From: Flavobacteriaceae bacterium Ap0902
GTDB taxonomy: Bacteria; Bacteroidota; Bacteroidia; Flavobacteriales; Weeksellaceae
Assembly (NCBI GenBank): GCA_009835005.1
Contig: WTFG01000011.1
Coordinates: forward strand, 1 to 64,000
DNA: 64,000 nucleotides
Reading direction: 5' to 3'
Below, in pieces: positions 2,654 to 28,926 of the stretch. Both the position numbers and the translations under genes were made by a program. Below the pieces are notes generated by a model that saw only the letters and a list, made by a program, of their open reading frames with translations, had not been told where the DNA came from and ran no database searches. Position 1 is the stretch's first letter. Each line of letters starts with the position of its first letter.

Positions 2654-3877
2654 TTAAAAAATCTTTTGTTTCTGCTTATTTGGTTTGTTTAATATATTCT
2701 GGTAATAAAATTCAAACTTTTTAAACTTTGTGGTATTATATAAACCCGCAACTGCAAAAATTATAAAGCCTGGAAGAAACATGTTTCTCTCGCGAATTAT
2801 GATACCTAGATTTCCCAATATAGGAGCGAAGGCTAATGCGCCAATGAGCCAATACAAGAAACTGGATAAAATTATAAAATGGCTAGATTTAAACACTCTG
2901 ATTGGTTTATTACGTAAGAAAATTGCTGTTAATAGAATCCAGGCTACATTTTCAATAGAGGCTAAAAGCCCTAACGCATTTGGAGCATCAAAAAATAAGG
3001 GTCTATATAGAAAGGTGAATACTTGTAAAGGATAGGGGAGGTTCCCAATATCTACGGATGAACCAGCTGACCTGCTTAATGCTCCTGATTTACTCTCACT
3101 AAATTGGCTGAAAGATTCTACAGATGCATCATCAATTTTGGCAAATTCTAAAACATTATTTAATAGGGGTAGAAATAATATAAATGCAACAATTGTGATA
3201 AGAATTTTTTGCACCAGATACATTTTGCTTTTGAGAATAAAAGAGGTCGCAAATCCTGCGAGCAAGAAAAGTAATATATGAGGTCTGATTGGATATGCTA
3301 TCGCTATGATGAAAAGTAGCATCCACCATCTTTTCTTTAGATTATTTATGGCATAGAAAAATGCACATGCACAGAAAAAAAGTAGAGTATCTTTACCAAC
3401 GCCACCAGACCAGAAATGGAAATTGGGTAGAAATAGTATCGTAGGGAAGATAGAAACCCCTAAAAACTTTATGTGCTTCACGTATTGGATCAATGGAAAT
3501 AATTCTTTTAAAGTCACTATCATCAAGAGAATTCCCCAATAGCCGAGAAGACCAAATAGCATAGTCCCAGTAAAAAAATCTAAATTTAGTATATTGGATG
3601 GCAGGTAGCATATTAAGTAAACATAATCAGAGGCAGAAGTATTTCCCAAAAGAATTTTAGTCCATAATTCTTCAAAATAAATTTCTTTGGCGATTTTCCA
3701 ATATCCTTGCGCATCACCTCCATTGGTTCTTATGTATAAATAGAATACAAAAGACATAATCATATGATATACATATAATTGATCCAATAGAACAAAATCC
3801 TTGGTATTTAAAGTTTTATATCTATCTTTTAAAAAATAACCAAAGGTTAATAATAATATAACAATGATATAATCCAT
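2654..3877 (-). CDS. Multispanning membrane protein, candidate Wzy-type glycan polymerase
   Basis: A 407-residue integral membrane protein with roughly ten hydrophobic segments across its length and a larger hydrophilic loop around residues 250-290. The start MDYIIVILLLTFGYFLKDRY puts the first helix at the very N-terminus. Basic or aromatic stretches between helices (AYPIRPHILLF near 193; RERNMFLPG near 365) resemble the arginine-bearing loops of O-antigen or capsule polymerases. I recognise no family-specific motif. Its place among glycosyltransferases, the absence of any other obvious polymerase, and its topology make Wzy the best guess; an EpsG-like or acyltransferase role is possible. 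It has spacers of about 155 bases on both sides, unlike the packed genes nearby. Confidence 0.5.
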   Translation of the reverse strand: MDYIIVILLLTFGYFLKDRYKTLNTKDFVLLDQLYVYHMIMSFVFYLYIRTNGGDAQGYWKIAKEIYFEELWTKILLGNTSASDYVYLICYLPSNILNLDFFTGTMLFGLLGYWGILLMIVTLKELFPLIQYVKHIKFLGVSIFPTILFLPNFHFWSGGVGKDTLLFFCACAFFYAINNLKKRWWMLLFIIAIAYPIRPHILLFLLAGFATSFILKSKMYLVQKILITIVAFILFLPLLNNVLEFAKIDDASVESFSQFSESKSGALSRSAGSSVDIGNLPYPLQVFTFLYRPLFFDAPNALGLLASIENVAWILLTAIFLRNKPIRVFKSSHFIILSSFLYWLIGALAFAPILGNLGIIIRERNMFLPGFIIFAVAGLYNTTKFKKFEFYYQNILNKPNKQKQKIF

Positions 3878-5361: not shown

Positions 5362-6552
5362 TTACTCTTTGAGTTGATTTAGTGCTTTCAAATATGAATG
5401 GGCGGCGGCTTCTAATGAGAAGATAGGTATTGCTTCTTGTCTTATTTCATTTCTTCTGATGTCTTTATGGCTATTTATAAAGTTTGTGATTTCCAGAGGC
5501 TGGGGAGGGGTGTCATGTTTATATAAGAGGGTTCCAGGTATTTTATCCAAAATTTCCTTTGAATCTCCAATCCCATTACTCGCGATAGTAGGAATGCCCA
5601 TCAATAAATACTCTCCTAATTTAATGGGGGCAACACCTATCATGCTTTTTTGGGGCTCCCTTATCGCAAAAGCAATGTCGCCAGCATTCATATAAGCAGG
5701 AACTTCTTTGAAAGGAACCTTTCTAATGCTGAAGTGTGGCTTCAAATTATTTGGAATCAATGGAGTCACTTTTTCTGGTGATCCTGTTAAAAATAAAAAA
5801 TGGCTAGAGGGGTTAGTTTTTAGGAAATGTTGGAATGTATCAAGCATAATCTTCCAGCCATATTGTGGACCAAAGGAACCAGCATATAGAAATACAACAT
5901 CATCTTTATTAACACCGATTTCTCTTCTTTTTTCAATTCTTAAGTTCTCGTTGGGCGTAAAATGAGAGATGTCTCTGCCATTTTGTACTACAAAAAATTT
6001 AGATTTATTTTCTGGGTTGTAATTTTTTAAATGATACTCAATAGATTGTTTAGACCTTGTGATTATATAATCGGAATTTTTAATTGCTTTTTTCTCTATA
6101 GATCTAAGAAATTTATGCATTACACTTCCTCTTTTTAAACCAGCAAAATCTATTCTTTCTTCTATAGGTAATCCATCTGCATCAAAGACGATGGGTAGGT
6201 TTAAGTTCAATTTATGAACCATATAGGCAGGAAAAGTGCTTCTAGGCATCAATATATCAATATTCCATTTTTCAATACATTGTTTGATATTTTTATCCCC
6301 CAGGAGTAAAGTTATTAAACTACCAATTGATGCCACCGGTTTTCGATTAATTGGTGCAGATTTATATGGAATGTTATTTTTATAAGATGCCTGCTCTTGG
6401 TCCGTTGTTTCTTTTGCCCATGTATATTGTAAATAATGAAATTTGTATGTTGGGTTTATCTTCTCTACAGCATTGAATATAGGCATAAATAGTCCTTCCG
6501 CATAACTAGTTTGTGGACCATCCCAAGTGATAAATAGTATGTTTTTTTTCAA
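5362..6552 (-). CDS. GT4-family glycosyltransferase
   Basis: A 396-residue GT-B glycosyltransferase. The N-terminus (ILFITWDGPQTSYAEGLFMP) is an acceptor-domain beta strand and loop. The linker carries SDYIITRSKQSIEYHL near 160, seen in many GT4 enzymes. The C-terminal domain has FLYAGSFGPQYGW near 225, FLFLTGSPEKV near 254 and then APIKLGEYLLMGIPTIAS near 314, where the KLGEY variant of the E-x7-E region contacts the donor nucleotide in related enzymes. No membrane segment is seen. It sits 17 bases after the preceding GT4 in transcription order, so the two are probably co-translated. Substrate is unknown. Confidence 0.82.
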   Translation of the reverse strand: MKKNILFITWDGPQTSYAEGLFMPIFNAVEKINPTYKFHYLQYTWAKETTDQEQASYKNNIPYKSAPINRKPVASIGSLITLLLGDKNIKQCIEKWNIDILMPRSTFPAYMVHKLNLNLPIVFDADGLPIEERIDFAGLKRGSVMHKFLRSIEKKAIKNSDYIITRSKQSIEYHLKNYNPENKSKFFVVQNGRDISHFTPNENLRIEKRREIGVNKDDVVFLYAGSFGPQYGWKIMLDTFQHFLKTNPSSHFLFLTGSPEKVTPLIPNNLKPHFSIRKVPFKEVPAYMNAGDIAFAIREPQKSMIGVAPIKLGEYLLMGIPTIASNGIGDSKEILDKIPGTLLYKHDTPPQPLEITNFINSHKDIRRNEIRQEAIPIFSLEAAAHSYLKALNQLKE

Positions 6553-6569: not shown

Positions 6570-7646
6570 TTAGCCTTTTTTTACTTGATAGATTTTATAT
6601 AATTCTTGAATATGTTGTTTTAGAGAATAATTAGTAAGAACTTTCTTGTGTGCCTTTTGTCGAATTTCATTCCTTTTTATATCATCCAAGTTAAGTATGG
6701 TTTTAATCTGATTTTTTAAACTATCCGTATCATTCACGGGAATTATAAATCCTGAGTTGCCGTGTTCTATCATCTCTGATGCGGATCCACTATCTGTTGA
6801 TATAGATATAGTTTTCGCATACATTGCTTCACACAGTGCATTAGAAAACCCTTCTGTAAAAGAGTTGAGTATGAAAATATCTGCTGCGTGTAGTTTGTTC
6901 ATTGGAGATGCTTCAAATCCATGTAGAACTATACGGTCTGATAGATTATAATCATTTATTAATTCTTCTAACCTACCTCTTTGTTCTCCTTCGCCATAAA
7001 TATGGTAGTATAAATTATAACCTTCTTGGATGAGTTGAGCAATGACTTTTATAACCTCAGGGATGTTTTTAACAGCAGTTAATCTAGAAACACTGATGAT
7101 ATGAGTAGCATTGCTTGGTTTGTAAGAAAATAATTTATCTTCAATCGGATTGAAAATAATCGGATTATTCACCTGGTATAATTTATTGTGCGGTACCGCA
7201 TTATTTTCATATAGTACTTTTAATACTGGCTTAGAATTGCCTATAACCGCTTTGGCAAATTTATATATTTGGGTGAAGATAACTCTAGCCTTTAAACTTT
7301 GATTAGGAATTCCAATCTCTTCTGCTATTATAGTTTCAACTCCTGCGAGTTTGCCTGCTATAACACCATGGTAATTAGCCTCTGCACCAGATGTGTGTAA
7401 TACGTTTGGCTTTTCTTTTTTCAGGAATTTATATAATTTATAAGTAGTTTTGATGGAATAGATAGAGGGATTAGCATGCAAATTGACGACTCTTTTCCCT
7501 TGCTTTTTAATTTCATCTGCAGCATAGCCCGTATTATTCAAGCAGGTGAAAATCCATTCATTATCATCCTGAACATGGCTTACATTTACCAAACGTTTTT
7601 CTAGTCCTCCAAAATCTAAGAAAGTAGATAGCCTAATTATCTTCAT
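6570..7646 (-). CDS. GT4-family glycosyltransferase
   Basis: A 358-residue GT4 enzyme. It begins MKIIRLSTFLDFGGLEKRLVN, with the double-glycine acceptor-domain loop. Later landmarks are HTSGAEANYHGVIAGKLAGV near 84-103, IISVSRLTAVKNIPEVI near 180, YHIYGEGEQRGRLEELI near 213, and the complete E-x7-E motif in FTEGFSNALCEAM near 262, followed by ISTDSGSASEMI. Its start overlaps the end of the ATP-grasp gene by 14 bases, so translation is probably coupled. This makes it the best candidate to transfer the sugar made by the upstream NeuB, HAD and ATP-grasp cassette, although known nonulosonate transferases are usually not GT4. That link is inference. Confidence 0.85.
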   Translation of the reverse strand: MKIIRLSTFLDFGGLEKRLVNVSHVQDDNEWIFTCLNNTGYAADEIKKQGKRVVNLHANPSIYSIKTTYKLYKFLKKEKPNVLHTSGAEANYHGVIAGKLAGVETIIAEEIGIPNQSLKARVIFTQIYKFAKAVIGNSKPVLKVLYENNAVPHNKLYQVNNPIIFNPIEDKLFSYKPSNATHIISVSRLTAVKNIPEVIKVIAQLIQEGYNLYYHIYGEGEQRGRLEELINDYNLSDRIVLHGFEASPMNKLHAADIFILNSFTEGFSNALCEAMYAKTISISTDSGSASEMIEHGNSGFIIPVNDTDSLKNQIKTILNLDDIKRNEIRQKAHKKVLTNYSLKQHIQELYKIYQVKKG

Positions 7647-8685
7647 TCGTCCTCTTCACAAAGTTGTCTATTGCATTTGCATATTCTTCTTCCAGAATAG
7701 ATTTTTCTTCTATTTTATTCCATCGGTTATTTTCCCAAACAGAGTAAAAGTTTGATTGTGTTAAACCAATTGGCCCAAATGCTGTACCTTGAAACTCAAA
7801 TAAATAGCAATTCTTGCTATCATCAATACCTACATCAATTGAAACGAATGGTGTTTTAAGTTTTTCTATGATTGATTTAGAGAAGTTAAGAACCTCTACA
7901 GGCGCTTCTTCAAAAGAAAACTTACCACTTCCACTCGCTCTAAAATCATTTTCTCTAGTCTCTCTCTTAAAAGTATAATATTTATTACCAAATTGTAGTA
8001 CCTTATAGTCACATTTTAAATCTGGTATGAATTCTTGATATATAACAGGTATTCTTTTTTGAAAATAATCTGTAAAATTAATTTCTAACAGGTTTTCTCT
8101 AGGGTTTAAATTTTGATCTTTATTAAAGCTATTTCTTTTATTTACCTGAAAGGCAATCTTCTCTTTAAGTGATTGTTTTTTAAGTCTTTTTTGAATTTGA
8201 ATTAGTTCATTCTCTGATTTTATTAGATGAACACCACTAGATAACGCACCTTTATTTTCTTTTAAGACAAATGGAAAAGTTAGTTTATCATTCACCAACT
8301 CATCAATATCTCCATAATATTTCCCTTTCACTCTTTCTATACCCAACATTTTTTTCATATACTCTTGGAAACCTTTATTCTCTAGAGCGTATAATTGATT
8401 AAATTTAGGGAAAATTTTGATATCTGGTCTCTGATGTGTTATAAATAGAATAGTATCCTGTATATAGCGTAAATAATTTTCATTATATACAGAGGAGTAG
8501 AATAAAACTGCGTTATAGGGAATATCATCAAGACTATCTACTAATTTATCAAATGAAATTATATTAGTTTCCCACCCTAGTTTCTTAAACTGATTTTCTA
8601 TTATTTTGGTGTCTAGTCCCATCCAGATACGTCCAGCCATAAACTGTTGATAGACTGGTGCAATTATAATATGTTTACTTTTCAT
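7633..8685 (-). CDS. ATP-grasp domain protein of unknown substrate in NeuB cassette
   Basis: A 350-residue soluble protein with ATP-grasp features. The pre-ATP-grasp region runs over about residues 1-100 and has MAGRIWMGLDTKIIENQFKK near 16-35. The nucleotide-binding segment FPFVLKENKGALSSGVHLIK (about 138-157) corresponds to the Lys-bearing strand and glycine loop. A C-terminal acidic metal site is seen in VSIDVGIDDSKNCYLFEFQG near 285-304. Such enzymes join a carboxylate to an amine or thiol through an acyl phosphate. Between a KdsC-like phosphatase and a glycosyltransferase it may attach an amino or carboxylic acid to a sugar, or work on a nonulosonate carboxylate. Overlap with the downstream gene suggests coupled translation. 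I recognise no characterised orthologue; fold confidence is fair, function unknown. Confidence 0.65.
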   Translation of the reverse strand: MKSKHIIIAPVYQQFMAGRIWMGLDTKIIENQFKKLGWETNIISFDKLVDSLDDIPYNAVLFYSSVYNENYLRYIQDTILFITHQRPDIKIFPKFNQLYALENKGFQEYMKKMLGIERVKGKYYGDIDELVNDKLTFPFVLKENKGALSSGVHLIKSENELIQIQKRLKKQSLKEKIAFQVNKRNSFNKDQNLNPRENLLEINFTDYFQKRIPVIYQEFIPDLKCDYKVLQFGNKYYTFKRETRENDFRASGSGKFSFEEAPVEVLNFSKSIIEKLKTPFVSIDVGIDDSKNCYLFEFQGTAFGPIGLTQSNFYSVWENNRWNKIEEKSILEEEYANAIDNFVKRTNEDN

Positions 8686-8738: not shown

Positions 8739-9251
8739 TTATTGCTCAAAATCTCCAATTTTGTTTAAGGTTTCTTCTAGTATATTATTTTCTGATAGTA
8801 TATACTCTATAAAAGTACGAAAAGCACCTTCACCACCATTCGTATCTAACACCTTAGTCACTATACTTTTGATGTAAGATGGGGCGTTCTGTGGACATGC
8901 ACTAAAGCCAACTTTTTGTAATAAGCCAATATCATTTATATCATCTCCTATATAAGCACATTCCTCTATGTTGATGCTCAATTCTTTGCAAAGGCGATCT
9001 GCTAATTTTATTTTATCCTTTACGCCTTGATATACGTATTCTATCTTTAATTTTTCTGCACGTTTGGCTACCATAGGCGTTGTTTCTCCTGTGAAAATTG
9101 CTACTGGTATATTGTTGAGTCTCGCAAATAGAACTCCCGCGCTATCGTAAGTATGAAATTTTTTAATATAATCACCCTCTGGCGTATAATACATACTTCC
9201 GTCTGTCCATACACCATCTATATCTGTGATAATTAATTTAGGCAAAATCAT
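8739..9251 (-). CDS. KdsC-like HAD phosphatase (C0 type), probable nonulosonate-phosphate phosphatase
   Basis: A 170-residue capless HAD phosphatase. The catalytic DxD is in LIITDIDGVWTDG (Asp10 and Asp12), motif II is IFTGE near 53, the lysine is in QGVKDK near 75, and motif IV is YIGDDINDIGLL near 101-112. The C-terminal GGEGAFRTFIEYIL resembles the KdsC tail that reaches a neighbouring active site in the tetramer. Size and lack of a cap match KDO-8-P and KDN-9-P phosphatases. Its ATG overlaps the stop of the NeuB-like gene by four bases. Context argues for dephosphorylating the product of that synthase rather than general KDO synthesis, although a KDO role cannot be excluded because kdsB lies elsewhere in the window. 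Confidence 0.82.
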   Translation of the reverse strand: MILPKLIITDIDGVWTDGSMYYTPEGDYIKKFHTYDSAGVLFARLNNIPVAIFTGETTPMVAKRAEKLKIEYVYQGVKDKIKLADRLCKELSINIEECAYIGDDINDIGLLQKVGFSACPQNAPSYIKSIVTKVLDTNGGEGAFRTFIEYILSENNILEETLNKIGDFEQ

Positions 9252-10297
9252 TTGATAGAATTTGGCATAATTAATTCATTTTTAGGAATATCTTGCGTTA
9301 AGATTTTGCCAATAACTTGATCCTTTTCTGCCCATTTGTAACCATCCCCAGGGCTAAGTAAATGAATGTCATCTTTTGTGATTACCTCACCTGACTTCAT
9401 AGCTTTGTTGGTGGCTATAGATCGCTCTAGTTTAAGCTTTGCAGATGTAACATCATCCTCTATGAAAATATCTTTTTCACCCATCCATCTCTCTGCTATT
9501 CGGATATCTCTAACCATCCGCTTAACGCCATCTGGTCCTAGAGATCCTTTTTGATCGGTTCCTTTCATATTTCTATCTATAGTGATATGTTTTTCTATGA
9601 TAGAGGCGCCCATACCCACAGCAACCACAGGAGCACTAATGCCAATGGTATGATCTGAGAATCCAATGGTATAATCCTTATAATTCTCTAGGAGATATGG
9701 GATAGTGTTAAGGTTTAGATTATCTGGCTTTGTAGGATATTCGGAAACACAATGTAGTATGGAAATATCAGAATGTTGTTTGGTTATAATACCCAGGGCA
9801 TCATCCAGCTCTTTTTTACCTCCCATACCAGTAGAGAGAATGATTGGCAGTTTAGTTTCTGCTAAAGCCTCAAGTAAGGGTAAATTGGTTAGATCCCTAC
9901 TAGCCACCTTTAATTTATCTGGAGTAAAGTATTTAAGTAAACTTAGACAACCGATAGCACATAGCGTCTCAACGAATTCTAATCCTAGGGATTTAGCATG
10001 TTTATACACCTCGAAATGTTCCTCATCAGAGAGCTCTAAAAACCTTCTATGTTCGCCGTATGTCTTGCCAAAAGAGTTAGGGCCGATGTAAGGTTTTTTG
10101 TTTTGACTTTCCGTCAACTCTTCTTTCAAGTCTCTCTTGGTTAATTTGACTGCATCAATTGGCTGCAAGTTTAGATTGAATAAATTCTCTTCTATAGGCC
10201 TGGACACGAGTTCAGTAATCAATTTAGCGATGTCCACTGAACCATTATGATTTTGACCAATTTCGCCTATAATATATACGTGATTGTTATTTTTCAT
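9248..10297 (-). CDS. neuB: NeuB-family synthase (nonulosonic acid or KDN-9-phosphate synthase-like) with SAF domain
   Basis: A 349-residue PEP-condensing enzyme of the sialic acid synthase family. It would join PEP to a ManNAc-like or mannose-6-phosphate-like sugar to give a nine-carbon acid. Visible motifs are IGEIGQNHNGS near 10-20, KLTKRD near 51, KVASRDLTNLPLLE near 129 (usually KIPS.E.TN), STGMG near 155, HCVSEYP near 181, IGFSDHT near 211, and EKHITIDRNMKGTDQKGSLG near 235 holding metal and substrate residues. The C-terminal 60 residues (ERSIATNKAMKSGEVITKDD onward) are an antifreeze-like SAF domain. Between about residues 57 and 90 it has a longer loop than canonical NeuB. It overlaps the upstream cytidylyltransferase gene by 11 bases and the phosphatase by 4. 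The exact product is not determinable. Confidence 0.85.
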   Translation of the reverse strand: MKNNNHVYIIGEIGQNHNGSVDIAKLITELVSRPIEENLFNLNLQPIDAVKLTKRDLKEELTESQNKKPYIGPNSFGKTYGEHRRFLELSDEEHFEVYKHAKSLGLEFVETLCAIGCLSLLKYFTPDKLKVASRDLTNLPLLEALAETKLPIILSTGMGGKKELDDALGIITKQHSDISILHCVSEYPTKPDNLNLNTIPYLLENYKDYTIGFSDHTIGISAPVVAVGMGASIIEKHITIDRNMKGTDQKGSLGPDGVKRMVRDIRIAERWMGEKDIFIEDDVTSAKLKLERSIATNKAMKSGEVITKDDIHLLSPGDGYKWAEKDQVIGKILTQDIPKNELIMPNSIK

Positions 10298-11054
10298 TTT
10301 TTTTAATTTGATCCTGCATTATATTAATCAGATCTGGATGATAATTCAACTCATGTAAAACTTGAGATGTTTCAAAATTCAATCCGAATTTTTCATAAGT
10401 AATTTTGAACAATTCCTGTTGAATTTTAAAATCTGCTGAGGTATCTGTTGTGAGTCTGATTTTTTCACTATCAGGAATGTAGTAGGGGTTTAACCACTTT
10501 ATGTTAAATATTTCCTTGTGACTATATAGGTAGTTGGTTACATGCTCGTGATAATTCATATCTTTTGTCAACTGGTTAACTTTTTCTAAGGCTTGGGTTT
10601 TTACCAACTCTCCCCATAATCCATAGTGAGTGAGGATGTTTGGTTTGTTGCGGATATGATAGGCTATGTAGTCATATTCCAGGTTGGTTTGGCCCATTGA
10701 GAATAGTCTTTTCAAGTCATTGATATCCATAAATACATTGTCAGAGCAGACGCGAACAATGTTATGAACTTCATGATTTTTGGCTGATCCAATAAAGCGA
10801 CCTAAGACATCGTGTTCACTACCTCTATATACGTGAACATTGGTTTTATTGGCGATCTCTGCAATTACGTCATTCTCTGGATTCGTAGAGGTCGCTATAA
10901 TGATATCATTTTTTGGAATCACGTGTTTAATTCTTTCTACTAATATTTCTAAAATACCCATTCCATTATGGAAGTCAAGAATAGTTTTTTTAGGAAGGCG
11001 GGTAGAGGATACCCTTGCTTGGAGAATTACCTTGCAGGTTCTAGAATTATTCAT
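10287..11054 (-). CDS. SpsF-like cytidylyltransferase (nucleotide-sugar activation)
   Basis: A 255-residue protein of the SpsF/COG1861 branch of the CMP-sugar synthetase fold. The N-terminal nucleotide-binding loop is VILQARVSSTRLPKKTILDF (about 9-28), a variant of the QARxxSTRLPGK motif. IIIATSTNPENDVIAEIA near 50 and VHVYRGSEHDVLGRF near 74 are also family landmarks, as is the acidic VRVCSDNVFMDI near 99. Placed directly before a NeuB-like synthase and overlapping it, it most likely makes the CMP-activated form of the acid sugar, the role NeuA plays in other pathways. SpsF proteins are often annotated as glycosyltransferases, which is the main alternative. A 197-base spacer separates it from the upstream GT2 gene, so it may head a module. 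Confidence 0.75.
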   Translation of the reverse strand: MNNSRTCKVILQARVSSTRLPKKTILDFHNGMGILEILVERIKHVIPKNDIIIATSTNPENDVIAEIANKTNVHVYRGSEHDVLGRFIGSAKNHEVHNIVRVCSDNVFMDINDLKRLFSMGQTNLEYDYIAYHIRNKPNILTHYGLWGELVKTQALEKVNQLTKDMNYHEHVTNYLYSHKEIFNIKWLNPYYIPDSEKIRLTTDTSADFKIQQELFKITYEKFGLNFETSQVLHELNYHPDLINIMQDQIKKNEK

Positions 11055-17484: not shown

Positions 17485-19149
17485 TTAATTTGCAACCCAA
17501 ATATCGTAAAATCGGGTTGATTTAACTAATCGGTAATGATTTTGATTTAAAAATAAATTTTTCGCATTTTCTATTTCTGTAGAAAAAAGACCTTGCTTGG
17601 TATCCATAAAGATTGGTTTTCTATCCTTTAGGTTTATTCTATCAAAAATACTAGCTGGTTTTGCTAGAGAATTCCCGATGAGCCAAATTTCCTTATCGGC
17701 AGGTTTCATCTGGGTCAAATAATAAAATAATGGTTTATGCCCGTAGATAAATAATTCTGTTGAGTCATCCACTTTAAATCGCATTAAATCAAGCGTTGTT
17801 AATTCTATTTCTTGCGCTCTATCTTGGGTTGTGTACATTCCGTTGTAATTATTTACATGGACGGGGTAGGTTGCTTTTAATCGTATAAGTGGGTTTTGCC
17901 CGACACCATAAATAAAGACAAAGTATAGAAATAGAGAATATAAACCAATATAGACCCCCAATGAAATACTCAATTTTCTAATATTGGATTGGGTAGCATG
18001 ACTTAAATTGCCTAATGCAATCGGAATAATTAAAATAAATAAAAAAGATGATTTAAGAAATATGCCTGTATTGGAACCTGCAACTTGTACTAAAATGAAC
18101 AAGAAAGATAAGATGAGAATCCACTGGCTCAATTTTGATAATGATGATTTATAGAGGATAATTAGAACCAATGAGGGGACAACATACTTAATAGAATTAT
18201 TATAATTAAAAGTAAAAGGATATATTGATAACAGAACTAATCCGAGTCCTAACCCAATATATAGGATCCATTGTTTCCTGAATCTAATTTTGAGCTTTAA
18301 ATATTCGACTGAAAAGAACAAAATAGATGTCGTAATTAAGTATAATAGAAAATAAAAGAAGTCTAGCATATAGACTTTAATTACACGGGTGATGCTATAT
18401 TCTAAACCAGAAACTTTAAAAACAGTTTTGGGATTGAAAAGATTATCTAAATATACTTGTGCAATGTCATAATATACCATTATCAAATAGATAAAGGTAG
18501 AAGAGATTATTACAGAGATGTAGTATGTGGTAGTGAGCGTAATGATTTTCTTGTTGGTTATGGTGTGTAATTGAAGAAATTTACTAACAAATAAACCCAA
18601 TGGAATCATCAATATTAATAATAAATTGGGAAGTCTAATTAAAATAGAGAGGCTAGTAATTACACCCACAATTATGAAGTTTCTGTTGGATAGTATGTTC
18701 CTTGTAGAAGATAAGAAATATAGGATTAATAATAATATAAAGGATGTTGCTAAATCATAATTAAAGATAAGCGGGAAGCAGCGTATATTGAACAACAGGC
18801 CTATGAGTAGGAGTATAGGGAGTGTGTGGTTTTGTGGGAATAGTTTTTTAAGAATCTGAAAGCTCAAGATGAGGTTTCCATACAGAAAGATTAATGCAAG
18901 TAATTTGATATTGTATATCTCAAGGGAAGGAAATAATTTAAGGAATGAGCCTCCAATCAATTCGGTTAAGAAGATTATGGAATCCGTTGTACCTTCTTGG
19001 AGTCTTTCAAAAAAGAATTGATAAATGGTTAAATTAAAGCCTGTATCTCCCAGGTCACCGTCTTGCCATATAAATATGGACGGTATTAAAAAAATAAAAA
19101 CCCAAACCAATCCTTGAAGAGTATTCTTAGACTTAGCTTGGGTCAACAT
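17485..19149 (-). CDS. Large multispanning membrane protein, possible GT-C fold glycosyltransferase
   Basis: A 554-residue protein with about eleven hydrophobic helices spread over residues 10-430 and a soluble C-terminal region of about 120 residues. The first extracytoplasmic loop contains DGDLGDTGFNLTIYQFFFE (about 30-48), an acidic loop at the position where GT-C enzymes such as PMT/ArnT carry catalytic acidic residues. The C-terminal part (TTLDLMRFKVDDSTELFIYGHKP) resembles the periplasmic tail of membrane-bound mannosyltransferase-like proteins. I take it for a polyprenyl-phosphate-sugar-dependent transferase or a second polymerase candidate; a flippase is less likely because of the long soluble tail. 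No family can be named with certainty. Confidence 0.5.
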   Translation of the reverse strand: MLTQAKSKNTLQGLVWVFIFLIPSIFIWQDGDLGDTGFNLTIYQFFFERLQEGTTDSIIFLTELIGGSFLKLFPSLEIYNIKLLALIFLYGNLILSFQILKKLFPQNHTLPILLLIGLLFNIRCFPLIFNYDLATSFILLLILYFLSSTRNILSNRNFIIVGVITSLSILIRLPNLLLILMIPLGLFVSKFLQLHTITNKKIITLTTTYYISVIISSTFIYLIMVYYDIAQVYLDNLFNPKTVFKVSGLEYSITRVIKVYMLDFFYFLLYLITTSILFFSVEYLKLKIRFRKQWILYIGLGLGLVLLSIYPFTFNYNNSIKYVVPSLVLIILYKSSLSKLSQWILILSFLFILVQVAGSNTGIFLKSSFLFILIIPIALGNLSHATQSNIRKLSISLGVYIGLYSLFLYFVFIYGVGQNPLIRLKATYPVHVNNYNGMYTTQDRAQEIELTTLDLMRFKVDDSTELFIYGHKPLFYYLTQMKPADKEIWLIGNSLAKPASIFDRINLKDRKPIFMDTKQGLFSTEIENAKNLFLNQNHYRLVKSTRFYDIWVAN

Positions 19150-19171: not shown

Positions 19172-20458
19172 TTATAAACTCGCGTCTATTAAGTCCTTAG
19201 ATAAGAAGCTTTTGACATCATAAACTACTGCATTTTCTGATTTAAGCTTTTCTAAATCAATGTCTTTAAACTCTATATGAGAAACAGCTAATACCACCGC
19301 ATCATATTTTTCATTAGGTAGTTCTTGGACTGTTTGAATATGATATTCCTTTTCAACCTCTTTTGGATTAGCCCAAGGATCATAAACCGTGACATTGGTG
19401 CTATATGATTTTAATGATTGAATGACATCTATTACCTTGGTATTGCGTACATCTGGGCAATTTTCTTTGAAGGTAAATCCGAGTACTAATATTTTTGAAT
19501 CCTTAATTTTTATGTCTTTGTGCAACATTAATTTAATTACTTCAGAAGCTACATATTCTCCCATGCCATCGTTCATACGCCTTCCAGCCAATATGATTTC
19601 TGGGTGATAACCAAACTCTTGTGCTTTTTGCGCTAAATAATAAGGATCCACACCAATACAATGTCCACCCACTAAGCCTGGTGTAAATGGTAAGAAATTC
19701 CATTTAGTTCCCGCTGCTTCTAGGACATCTTTGGTGTTAATGTCCATTAAATTAAAAATTTTAGATAATTCATTGACAAATGCAATATTGATGTCTCTTT
19801 GTGAATTTTCTATCACTTTGGCTGCTTCTGCGACTTTAATGGTAGGTGCTAAATGCGTACCAGCAGTAATCACAGATTTATATAAATCATCTATTATCTT
19901 ACCAATTTCTGGAGTAGAACCAGAAGTTACTTTTAAAATCTTCTCTACTGTATGCTCTTTATCACCTGGATTGATTCTTTCTGGTGAATAGCCTACATAA
20001 AAATCTTCATTAAATGTTAGCCCACTAAATTTCTCTAAAATCGGTATACATTTTTCTTCTGTAGCACCAGGATAAACGGTAGATTCATAAATCACAATAT
20101 CTCCATTCTTTAGCACCTTCCCAACTGTCTCACTCGCCTTGATAAGAGGGGTTAAAACTGGTCTATTGTTTCTATCTACTGGCGTAGGAACCGTGATAAT
20201 ATAAACATTAGAATCCATGATGTCCTTGGAGTCGTGACTATTATATAAGCCTACATCTTCGGAACTTGGGTTTTCACTTACAAGAACAGACTGCAATAGT
20301 TCATCTGTCACTTCTAGCGTGTCATCATGCCCATTATTTAATTCTTTTACTCTTTGCTCATTGATGTCAAAGCCAACAACGGGATATTTCTCTGCGAATA
20401 ATCGCGCTAGGGGTAAGCCAACATACCCAAGACCTATTACAGTTATTTTATGCCTCAT
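19172..20458 (-). CDS. tviB: UDP-N-acetylhexosamine 6-dehydrogenase (TviB/WbpO type)
   Basis: A 428-residue nucleotide-sugar dehydrogenase that oxidises UDP-GalNAc or UDP-GlcNAc to the uronic acid with two NAD+. The start is placed at the ATG giving MRHKITVIGLGYVGLPLARL; an upstream in-frame start would add 14 residues and run into the preceding gene. Landmarks are ITVPTPVDRNNRPVLTPLI near 84-102, YESTVYPGATEEKC near 122, YSPERINPGDKEHTV near 153, KVAEAAKVIENSQRDINIAF near 200, and GLVGGHCIGVDPYYLA near 255-270 with the catalytic Cys. The ENSQRDINIA and NPGDKEH wording fits the TviB/WbpO branch rather than UDP-glucose dehydrogenase. Paired with the neighbouring 4-epimerase it would yield UDP-GalNAcA. 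Confidence 0.88.
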   Translation of the reverse strand: MRHKITVIGLGYVGLPLARLFAEKYPVVGFDINEQRVKELNNGHDDTLEVTDELLQSVLVSENPSSEDVGLYNSHDSKDIMDSNVYIITVPTPVDRNNRPVLTPLIKASETVGKVLKNGDIVIYESTVYPGATEEKCIPILEKFSGLTFNEDFYVGYSPERINPGDKEHTVEKILKVTSGSTPEIGKIIDDLYKSVITAGTHLAPTIKVAEAAKVIENSQRDINIAFVNELSKIFNLMDINTKDVLEAAGTKWNFLPFTPGLVGGHCIGVDPYYLAQKAQEFGYHPEIILAGRRMNDGMGEYVASEVIKLMLHKDIKIKDSKILVLGFTFKENCPDVRNTKVIDVIQSLKSYSTNVTVYDPWANPKEVEKEYHIQTVQELPNEKYDAVVLAVSHIEFKDIDLEKLKSENAVVYDVKSFLSKDLIDASL

Positions 20459-20469
20459 TATATTTAATT

Positions 20470-21444
20470 CTAATTTTTGTTTAAATTTTCCCAATACCAT
20501 TCAACAGCCTCTTTCAGCCCGTCTCTAAACTCGTGTGATGGTTGATATCCTAAATTTTGTCTTGCTTTTTCAATCGATGCTAATGAATGAGGTACATCGC
20601 CTTTCCTAGTAGGACCGTGTAAAATCTCAATATCCTTGATAGCTGGATCAAATGCTGATAGATATTCTTTCAATATTTCGGTCATATCTTTGATCGTAGT
20701 TCTGTCTCCCACGGCTGTATTATAAACTTGGTTCAAAGCCCCATGATTGTCTGTTTCTATAGCCAACAAATTCATTTGAACTACATTATCTATATAGGTA
20801 AAATCTCTAGAGAAAGTTCCATCTCCATTAATGGTAGGAGATTCATGATTCATCAATTGAATCACAAATTTTGGAATCACCGCCGCATAAGCCCCATTAG
20901 GGTCTTGACGCCTACCAAACACATTAAAATATCTAAGACCAATTGTATCTAAGCCATAAGTTTTATGAAAAACATCTGCATAGATTTCATTTACTAATTT
21001 AGTTACCGCATAAGGGGAAAGAGGCTTTCCGATATTATCTTCTACTTTGGGTAATGCTTTTGAATCTCCATAAGTGGATGAACTTGCTGCATACACAAAG
21101 CGCTTAACCCCATTGTCTCTAGCAGCTACTAGCATGTTTAGGAAGCCACCAACATTCACATCATTACTGGTAATAGGATCGTTGATGGATCTTGGGACAG
21201 AACCTAAAGCGGCTTCATGTAAAATAAAATCTATTCCATTACATGCTTTTTGGCAAGTTTCTAAATCTCTTATGTCTCCTTCGATAAATGAAAACCTAGG
21301 ATTAGAAAGAAATGGATCAATATTTTTTTGATAGCCAGTAACAAAATTGTCGAGTGCTGTGACTTTATAATTCAACTCTAATAATCTCTCTACGAGATTG
21401 GAGCCTATAAAACCTGCTGCACCTGTTACTAAAACATGTTTCAT
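20470..21444 (-). CDS. wbpP: UDP-N-acetylglucosamine / uronate 4-epimerase (WbpP/TviC type)
   Basis: A 324-residue extended SDR epimerase. TGAAGFIGSNLVERLLELNY (about 7-26) is the NAD-binding start; LHEAALGSVPRSINDPITSN near 75-94 is the loop that marks the WbpP/TviC branch acting on N-acetylated substrates; AASSSTYGDSKALPK near 119 has the catalytic Ser; and PYAVTKLVNEIYA near 144 has the Tyr and Lys. YFNVFGRRQDPNGAYAAVIP near 171-190 binds the UDP. The gene ends 11 bases before the dehydrogenase and starts 6 bases after the Wzc stop, so the three are one transcription unit. The pair matches the two-step route from UDP-GlcNAc to UDP-GalNAcA used in Vi antigen and O-antigen synthesis. Confidence 0.88.
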   Translation of the reverse strand: MKHVLVTGAAGFIGSNLVERLLELNYKVTALDNFVTGYQKNIDPFLSNPRFSFIEGDIRDLETCQKACNGIDFILHEAALGSVPRSINDPITSNDVNVGGFLNMLVAARDNGVKRFVYAASSSTYGDSKALPKVEDNIGKPLSPYAVTKLVNEIYADVFHKTYGLDTIGLRYFNVFGRRQDPNGAYAAVIPKFVIQLMNHESPTINGDGTFSRDFTYIDNVVQMNLLAIETDNHGALNQVYNTAVGDRTTIKDMTEILKEYLSAFDPAIKDIEILHGPTRKGDVPHSLASIEKARQNLGYQPSHEFRDGLKEAVEWYWENLNKN

Positions 21445-28324: not shown

Positions 28325-28926
28325 GAGGTGCCTTTAAATCTTTCCATAGTTACAGAGGTGTCAGATGAAATTCCTTCTGATACAAAAACTTTTTTGATAG
28401 TCATAATTAGTATTTTAATATCTAGCAAAAAGTTTATATTTTCTACATACCAAACATCATAATCAAATTTTTGTTTCCAACTAATCGCATTTCTTCCATT
28501 GACTTGTGCCCATCCCGTAATTCCAGGTCTCACCCAATGCCTTTTTCTTTGGTGAGCATTATATAATGGTAAATATTCTGGTAATAAAGGACGTGGACCG
28601 ATGAGACTCATATCCCCTTTAATCACATTAATCAACTGTGGAATCTCATCCAATGAGGTTTTCCGCACGAACTGCCCAACTTTTGTTATGCGTTGAGCAT
28701 CTGGTAATAAGTTCCCTTGATGATCTTTCTTATCATTCATGGTTTTGAACTTAATAATCTTGAATAATTTTTCATTTTTCCCAGGTCTTGTTTGGAAAAA
28801 GAATGGTTTACCTTGATTCTTGAAATATAGTAATATGGTAATAAGCAAAAAGATAGGAAGTAGCATGAGAAAACCTATCGTGCTTAAAATAAAATCAAAC
28901 AATCGTTTAAAGAAAGCGTTATACAA
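28321..28926 (-). CDS. pglC: Undecaprenyl-phosphate sugar phosphotransferase (PglC type, initiating enzyme)
   Basis: A 201-residue monotopic phosphoglycosyl transferase that moves a sugar-1-phosphate from UDP-sugar to undecaprenyl phosphate and so starts glycan assembly. The N-terminal re-entrant helix is FFKRLFDFILSTIGFLMLLPIF near 5-26 (KRxFD start), followed by FFFQTRPGKNEKLFKIIKFK near 42-61, the catalytic Asp-Glu in TSLDEIPQLINVIKGDMSLI near 94-113, GPRPLLPEYL, and RPGITGWAQVNGRN near 137-150. The short length, without an N-terminal CoA-binding-like domain, matches PglC rather than WcaJ or WbaP. The di-N-acetylbacillosamine genes behind it suggest that sugar as substrate. It is the first gene of the locus. 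Confidence 0.92.
   Translation of the reverse strand: MYNAFFKRLFDFILSTIGFLMLLPIFLLITILLYFKNQGKPFFFQTRPGKNEKLFKIIKFKTMNDKKDHQGNLLPDAQRITKVGQFVRKTSLDEIPQLINVIKGDMSLIGPRPLLPEYLPLYNAHQRKRHWVRPGITGWAQVNGRNAISWKQKFDYDVWYVENINFLLDIKILIMTIKKVFVSEGISSDTSVTMERFKGTS

Follow-up and report, generated by a model that had tools for sequence, protein, structure and literature searches.

In a 64,000-nucleotide stretch of the genome of Flavobacteriaceae bacterium Ap0902 (hereafter the window), a polysaccharide locus encodes a 350-residue protein, here called AG. With modest confidence, we consider AG to be a carboxylate-amine ligase of the RimK-like ATP-grasp type, which would attach an amino acid or another small amine as a side group to one sugar of a capsule or O-antigen repeat unit. 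This level of confidence applies to the general ligase claim, whichever way round the amide is formed.

AG gene and its polysaccharide locus

The preliminary description of this DNA had placed an ATP-grasp gene in a surface-glycan locus. The gene is real, being an intact open reading frame on the minus strand at exactly the coordinates given there, and it lies among polysaccharide genes. The locus is long and on the minus strand, extends from glycosyltransferases starting at position 182 to a PglC-type initiating transferase ending at 28926, and is adjoined by the gene for ribosomal protein L25. The features referred to below are as follows.

2654..3877, minus strand: candidate polymerase (possibly Wzy), long and hydrophobic, related to proteins of close-clade loci and of AG-free sister loci
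5362..6552, minus strand: GT4_d glycosyltransferase of the conserved cassette; weak Pfam GT4 matches below the cut-off
6570..7646, minus strand: GT4_e glycosyltransferase, the stable partner of AG; Pfam Glycos_transf_1, 7.2e-33
7633..8685, minus strand: AG, ATP-grasp protein of 350 aa; open reading frame with ATG start and translation
8739..9251, minus strand: HAD phosphatase of the KDN-9-phosphatase type; NCBIfam NF058599, 240 bits (cut-off 180); not a conserved AG partner
9248..10297, minus strand: NeuB-type synthase; Pfam NeuB, 1.6e-63; not a conserved AG partner
10287..11054, minus strand: cytidylyltransferase, which we take to be of the SpsF type; Pfam CTP_transf_3, 1.9e-19; not a conserved AG partner
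19172..21444, minus strand: TviB/TviC-type pair; NCBIfam best hits, both below their cut-offs (TviB 549.6 bits against 592, TviC 387.5 against 760)

The 3′ end of AG overlaps the start of GT4_e by 14 bp. The HAD phosphatase gene lies 53 bp upstream of the AG start and is followed by the genes for the NeuB-type synthase and the cytidylyltransferase. The locus also carries PglF/DegT/PglD/PglC-type genes for a 4-amino sugar and a NeuD-type acetyltransferase. The TviB/TviC-type pair is predicted to yield UDP-GalNAcA, a possible uronic-acid acceptor. A Pfam search to E 1 gave no match for the candidate polymerase, whose function as such is a guess. A second hydrophobic-looking protein inside the locus (554 residues; 17485–19149, minus strand) also has no Pfam match.

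Assignment of AG to the ATP-grasp enzymes

Searched alone against Pfam and NCBIfam, AG reached no family cut-off, in agreement with the earlier remark that it matches no known sugar-ligase family. It scored 21.8 bits against Pfam ATP-grasp_4 (PF13535; gathering cut-off 27), 16.2 bits against Pfam RimK (cut-off 21) and 12.4 bits against the curated rimK_fam model TIGR00768 (cut-off 143.4). Filing AG as RimK itself was rejected, as it falls so far under the last of these values. A profile built from 21 relatives, however, matched the solved structures of ArgX (3vpb, 3.9e-10), RimK (5zct, 9.4e-9) and LysX (3.6e-8), with E-values for these enzymes spanning 2e-7 to 4e-10.

The structural model of AG, predicted from seven sequences, is of moderate quality (pTM 0.73, mean pLDDT 71.8). 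Its pLDDT falls below 50 at residues 146–150, 182–211 and 250–253, the first of these stretches being the ATP loop, which is thus modelled with low confidence. The best Foldseek hits of the model are whole-chain matches to ArgX, LysX and RimK. In VIA-align, RimK superposes with a Z of 19.3 (rmsd 4.0 over 271 residues), and RimK and ArgX together lie at Z 18–19, while glutathione synthetase, D-Ala ligases, synapsins and inositol kinases come out about 3 units lower. Combined, profile and predicted fold place AG firmly among the ATP-grasp enzymes, a call that stays below threshold for the single sequence. Its nearest solved relatives, as judged from profile and model, are the amino-acid ligases ArgX and LysX together with RimK, which is also the outcome of the comparison with known amino-acid ligases proposed in the preliminary description. 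No confident match to an enzyme of central metabolism was found.

The lysine-bearing strand and glycine loop singled out earlier, FPFVLKENKGALSSGVHLIK, correspond to AG residues 137–156. In the family alignment, K142, G146, Q217, A250, S251, G252, D284 and E297 are unvarying in all 61 members, and K104 is kept in 60 of the 61 rows, the remaining row having a gap. K104 and K142 are the two ATP-binding lysines, and D284 and E297, located on the last strands, are the acidic residues that coordinate the metal. An acidic metal site had been described near residues 285–304; the site itself is present as D284/E297, and the range given for it was inexact.

In ATP-grasp enzymes, the canonical third metal ligand is an asparagine (E-x-N). 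The corresponding position 299 of AG, which the profile alignment pairs with the asparagine of the ArgX motif E-L-N, is occupied in the 61 rows by serine (39), glutamine (21, including Q299 of AG) or threonine (1) and never by asparagine. We read E-x-[SQ] in place of E-x-N as a variant site, in which the fold and the other ligands are retained. The essential residues are therefore not lost, since both lysines and the Asp/Glu pair are intact, though the third metal ligand differs.

Distribution of the family

Eight further close homologues of AG (44–59% identity) were found in seven genomes, the hosts including Flavobacterium enshiense, F. suncheonense, a Flavobacterium MAG, an Aequorivita MAG and Profundicola chukchiensis (G018). 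Together with the AG of the window they form a set of nine with a tree support of 100/100; the 263-residue L047 was omitted from this tree only. These eight homologues, together with the invariant residues in the family alignment, indicate that AG is more than a product of chance.

With an E-value limit of 0.001, AG matched 23 of the 296 genomes sampled from the window's bacterial family; for the order, the figure was 9 of 296. When a profile was run against a broader set of 395 Bacteroidota genomes, the AG family was recovered at 1e-17 or better in 34, the window's included. The other 145 of the 179 genomes matched there scored 1.7e-11 or weaker and, among the matches listed, gave mostly short, generic-ATP-grasp-like stretches. 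A search of phages returned no relatives and one of plasmids a single E. coli match. Among 5426 E. coli genomes, five carry a distant relative, in two versions that are 71% identical in DNA. The close clade shares 18–20% identity with the distant members paired with opine-type dehydrogenases (see below). Compared with the group formed by E. coli and L049, it gives a profile-profile probability of 99.1 at an identity of only about 20%, supporting the view that the two belong together. Duplicate loci (L031 of L059, L032 of L058 and L115 of L030) were removed before counting. Most members whose neighbourhoods were viewed sit among polysaccharide genes; the distant members L042 and L108 have no recognised glycan gene within four genes.

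P. chukchiensis possesses two copies of AG, which lie on opposite strands and are separated by about 12 kb (L058 9998–12109 and L059 9992–12090). Between them (L058 1834–8151) lie genes for a DegT aminotransferase, an ATP-grasp_4 protein, a MaoC hydratase and two HpcH-type lyases, a set that may serve to make and transfer an unusual acyl group. In L111, L123, L132 and L133, AG genes occur in tandem, side by side.

AG lies in a variable gene position before GT4_e

GT4_e is located directly downstream of AG in eight of the nine close-clade genes, with an overlap of 14 or 4 bp in six of these. The exception is L063, where a MBOAT gene and one other gene intervene; in L058, the GT4_e gene beside AG is frameshifted. 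In eight of the nine, GT4_d is encoded on the same strand, no more than 4 kb from AG. Relatives of GT4_e at 1e-50 or better were present in 20 of the 292 genomes of the family sample, 16 of which have no AG match. Because of these 16 genomes, GT4_e is, as judged from gene distribution, not dependent on AG.

From the 16 AG-free genomes, the seven loci with the closest GT4_e (40–45%) were retrieved. Here, the gene before GT4_e encodes a pyruvyl transferase in two loci (L189 and L192), a GT2 glycosyltransferase in four (L188, L190, L193 and L194) and a protein without Pfam match in L191. GT4_d occurs in all seven. GT4_a is missing only from L191, and six loci encode a protein related to the candidate polymerase, the L189 stretch ending before that position. 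We read the AG position as a slot for decorating enzymes on a backbone that the loci share, which supports the decoration context suggested in the preliminary description. In the GT4_e tree, from which the frameshifted L058 gene was omitted, the AG group (8) and the no-AG group (7) are split with a support of 100/100. This tree is rooted at its midpoint and its outgroup branches are very long, which limits what it can say about a joint gain or loss of GT4_e and AG.

Genes adjoining AG in the wider family

The E. coli relatives of AG adjoin a dehydrogenase of the AlaDH/PNT type, annotated as N5-(carboxyethyl)ornithine synthase or alanine dehydrogenase. Its distribution coincides fully with that of AG, both being present in the same 5 of 5426 genomes. 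A dehydrogenase of this type also stands beside AG in L048 and L050, and an octopine-dehydrogenase-like enzyme in L049. The AlaDH-like proteins beside AG score far under the cut-off for alanine dehydrogenase. Among 246 genomes of the window's bacterial family, the L048-type dehydrogenase (1e-60 or better) is confined to the two genomes with the corresponding AG. Annotation and family membership suggest an opine-type activity for these paired dehydrogenases. A nucleotide-sugar dehydrogenase is present in four of the five opine-paired loci, which represent three lineages. In the close clade, the 9 kb to either side of AG yielded no opine-type dehydrogenase, and therefore the opine link holds at the level of the AG family only.

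Other neighbours of distant AG genes are asparagine-synthase-type amidotransferases, ATPgrasp_ST proteins and PGA_cap proteins. For comparison, 40 Wzx-anchored control loci, one per genome, were hand-picked among the matches listed in AG-free genomes, those with an AG match at 1e-17 or better being excluded. At least one of the neighbour classes, opine-type dehydrogenases included, occurs within 9 kb in 16 of 28 AG lineages, or in 27 of the 56 loci, compared with 5 of 40 controls (Fisher p 1.4e-4 for the lineages). This difference is supportive only, as the classes were picked after viewing the AG loci, the search seeds came from these loci and the controls were not genus-matched. Taken singly, PGA_cap (8/28 lineages vs 1/40 controls) and ATPgrasp_ST (4/28 vs 0/40) stand out. 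Asparagine synthase shows no enrichment within 9 kb (5/28 vs 4/40), and the two opine enzymes (2/28 and 1/28 vs 0/40) are too few to judge. Within the close clade, L063 alone has a neighbour from these classes, an asparagine-synthase-type gene. PGA_cap-domain proteins lie next to or near AG in L043, L110, L121, L128 and L131.

Proposed reaction and nature of the acceptor

RimK is the ribosomal protein S6 glutamate ligase, and LysX and ArgX are LysW amino-acid ligases. All three phosphorylate a carboxylate, which is then attacked by the amine of an amino acid. Transferred to AG, this chemistry would link an amino acid to a repeat-unit sugar through an amide bond. ATP and Mg would be held between the two ATP-grasp lobes by K104, K142, D284 and E297, the carboxylate would be phosphorylated to an acyl phosphate, and attack of the amine on this acyl phosphate would give the amide. 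We take the activated carboxylate to belong to a hexuronic acid, for example GalNAcA, and the amine to be supplied by an ordinary amino acid, with the side group being added in the same assembly pathway in which GT4_e acts. For AG, we infer the amide chemistry, the acceptor, the donor and the timing before or after sugar transfer. Much of the role put forward in the preliminary description, decoration by an amino-acid ligase, is retained: the ATP-grasp residues, the glycan locus, the amino-acid-ligase folds and the decoration slot agree with it. The link to NeuB that it implied is not (see below).

By analogy with the known ligases, the sugar carboxyl is somewhat more likely as the acceptor than an amino sugar, owing to the likeness to RimK and LysX and to the nucleotide-sugar dehydrogenases in the opine-paired loci. 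In the window, the likely uronic acid acceptor may come from the TviB/TviC-like pair. A TviB ortholog with 73% identity or more is present in seven of the eight close-clade genomes, the window's included. The TviB/TviC pair was rejected as a fixed acceptor supply, since in G067 and G131 TviB and AG lie far apart, and the only TviB relative in one MAG shares 27% identity. Across the wider family, a nucleotide-sugar dehydrogenase occurs near AG in 10 of 28 lineages against 5 of 40 controls (p 0.036), which is too weak to serve as proof of the acceptor.

The opposite direction, in which AG joins the carboxyl group of an amino acid to the free amine of an amino sugar of the bacillosamine or Fuc4N type, was the proposal of the preliminary description and falls within the general ligase claim. 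We regard it as rather unlikely in this specific form. The window does encode the 4-amino-sugar enzymes and the NeuD-type acetyltransferase, and a hexapeptide acyltransferase gene closely precedes AG in at least two loci of the close clade (L033 and L060). The enzymes with the nearest folds work the other way round, joining an amino-acid amine to a carboxylate, and four of the five opine-paired loci are equipped with a nucleotide-sugar dehydrogenase. On the other side, amino sugars with N-linked amino acids do occur in bacterial polysaccharides, according to the accessible portion of PMC10609480.

It is improbable that AG is an ATP-grasp kinase or a small-metabolite amide ligase unrelated to glycans. 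This would accommodate the inositol kinases among its structural neighbours (Z about 15.9), the replaced asparagine ligand and the setting of L042 and L108, but fits poorly with the polysaccharide genes around most viewed members and with a slot that is shared with a pyruvyl transferase or a glycosyltransferase.

The HAD/NeuB/SpsF trio (8739–11054) probably makes a KDN-like sugar and would thus be a CMP-KDN module, because the HAD phosphatase, at 240 bits, exceeds the threshold of 180 set for KDN-9-phosphatases. KDN itself lacks an amino group that could be acylated. NeuB is missing from four of the seven other close-clade genomes (G018, G067, G131 and G890, the last being a MAG and possibly incomplete), and for this reason it was rejected as a family-wide partner of AG. 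F. enshiense has both AG and the trio, with a NeuB of about 70–71% identity, but there the trio forms a separate operon beyond Wzc (L101 12440–15472), about 21 kb from AG. NeuB lies within 9 kb in only 3 of 56 AG loci; by lineage, this is 3 of 28, compared with none of the 40 controls (p 0.065). That AG acts on the nonulosonate of the trio, for instance by amidating the carboxyl group of KDN, is thus highly improbable, despite the 53 bp that separate the two in the window.

Relation to known systems

The amide-forming decoration ligase proposed here resembles RimK, LysX and ArgX in its predicted fold (Z 17–19), its two ATP-binding lysines and its Asp and Glu metal ligands. It differs from them in sequence (12–15% identity), in the glutamine or serine that the AG family has in place of asparagine, and in its glycan gene context.

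That ATP-grasp enzymes ligate amino acids to glycans is an old idea; such ligation was predicted earlier for teichuronopeptides, O-antigen and surface polymers, as far as the available parts of PMC4431377 and PMC2824669 report. In the accessible portion of PMC10609480, amide-linked amino acids on uronic acids and amino sugars are antigenic polysaccharide decorations, and the amides of uronic acids in bacterial polysaccharides involve Ala, Lys, Ser, Thr, Glu and N-epsilon-(1-carboxyethyl)lysine. The reference list of the same paper names an amino sugar with N-linked alanopine, an opine, which points against a carboxyl linkage. Excerpts of PMC11167607 and PMC12118408 mention ATP-grasp genes that may or may not belong to the AG family; the authors of PMC11167607 doubt a surface role for theirs. 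The open-access literature, as available in part, yielded no paper that assigns such a decoration ligase to an AG-like ATP-grasp family, and no description of an E-x-[SQ] family, of the slot exchange or of the opine-dehydrogenase pairing.

What seems to be new here is the delimited E-x-[SQ] family, the exchange of its slot with pyruvyl transferases and glycosyltransferases, and its pairing with opine-type dehydrogenases. As a tentative and still doubtful generalisation, this undescribed family (signature ASG and E-x-[SQ]; present across Bacteroidota and in rare E. coli loci) may comprise the missing ligases of amino acids, among them opines produced by a paired dehydrogenase, onto the uronic acids of capsules and O-antigens, its slot being exchanged with pyruvyl transferases and side-chain glycosyltransferases. 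The family would then allow amino-acid decorations to be predicted from genome sequence, and the residue signature, together with the opine-type dehydrogenase paired with some members, would make the ligase step testable.

Three further systems bear comparison. VimA is, to our knowledge, not an ATP-grasp enzyme. The VimA/WbpS pathway of Porphyromonas gingivalis resembles the proposed one in producing a Bacteroidota surface sugar that bears an amino acid as well as a uronic acid in amidated form, namely a 2-N-seryl, 3-N-acetylglucuronamide linking sugar (PMC13086638, available in part). The polysaccharide pyruvyl transferase (PF04230) is likewise a decorating enzyme and holds the same slot before GT4_e in two sister loci; however, it has no BLAST similarity to AG. 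Its chemistry also differs from ATP-grasp ligation. Finally, the sugar-transfer-associated ATPgrasp_ST (PF14397) is an ATP-grasp protein of polysaccharide loci that adjoins several distant AG members, whereas AG itself gave no Pfam match to it up to E 1. In four Bacteroidota loci (L117, L120, L123 and L125), BLAST places at least two ATP-grasp genes, of the AG and ATPgrasp_ST types, at or near AG, an arrangement that suggests a stepwise, peptide-like decoration.
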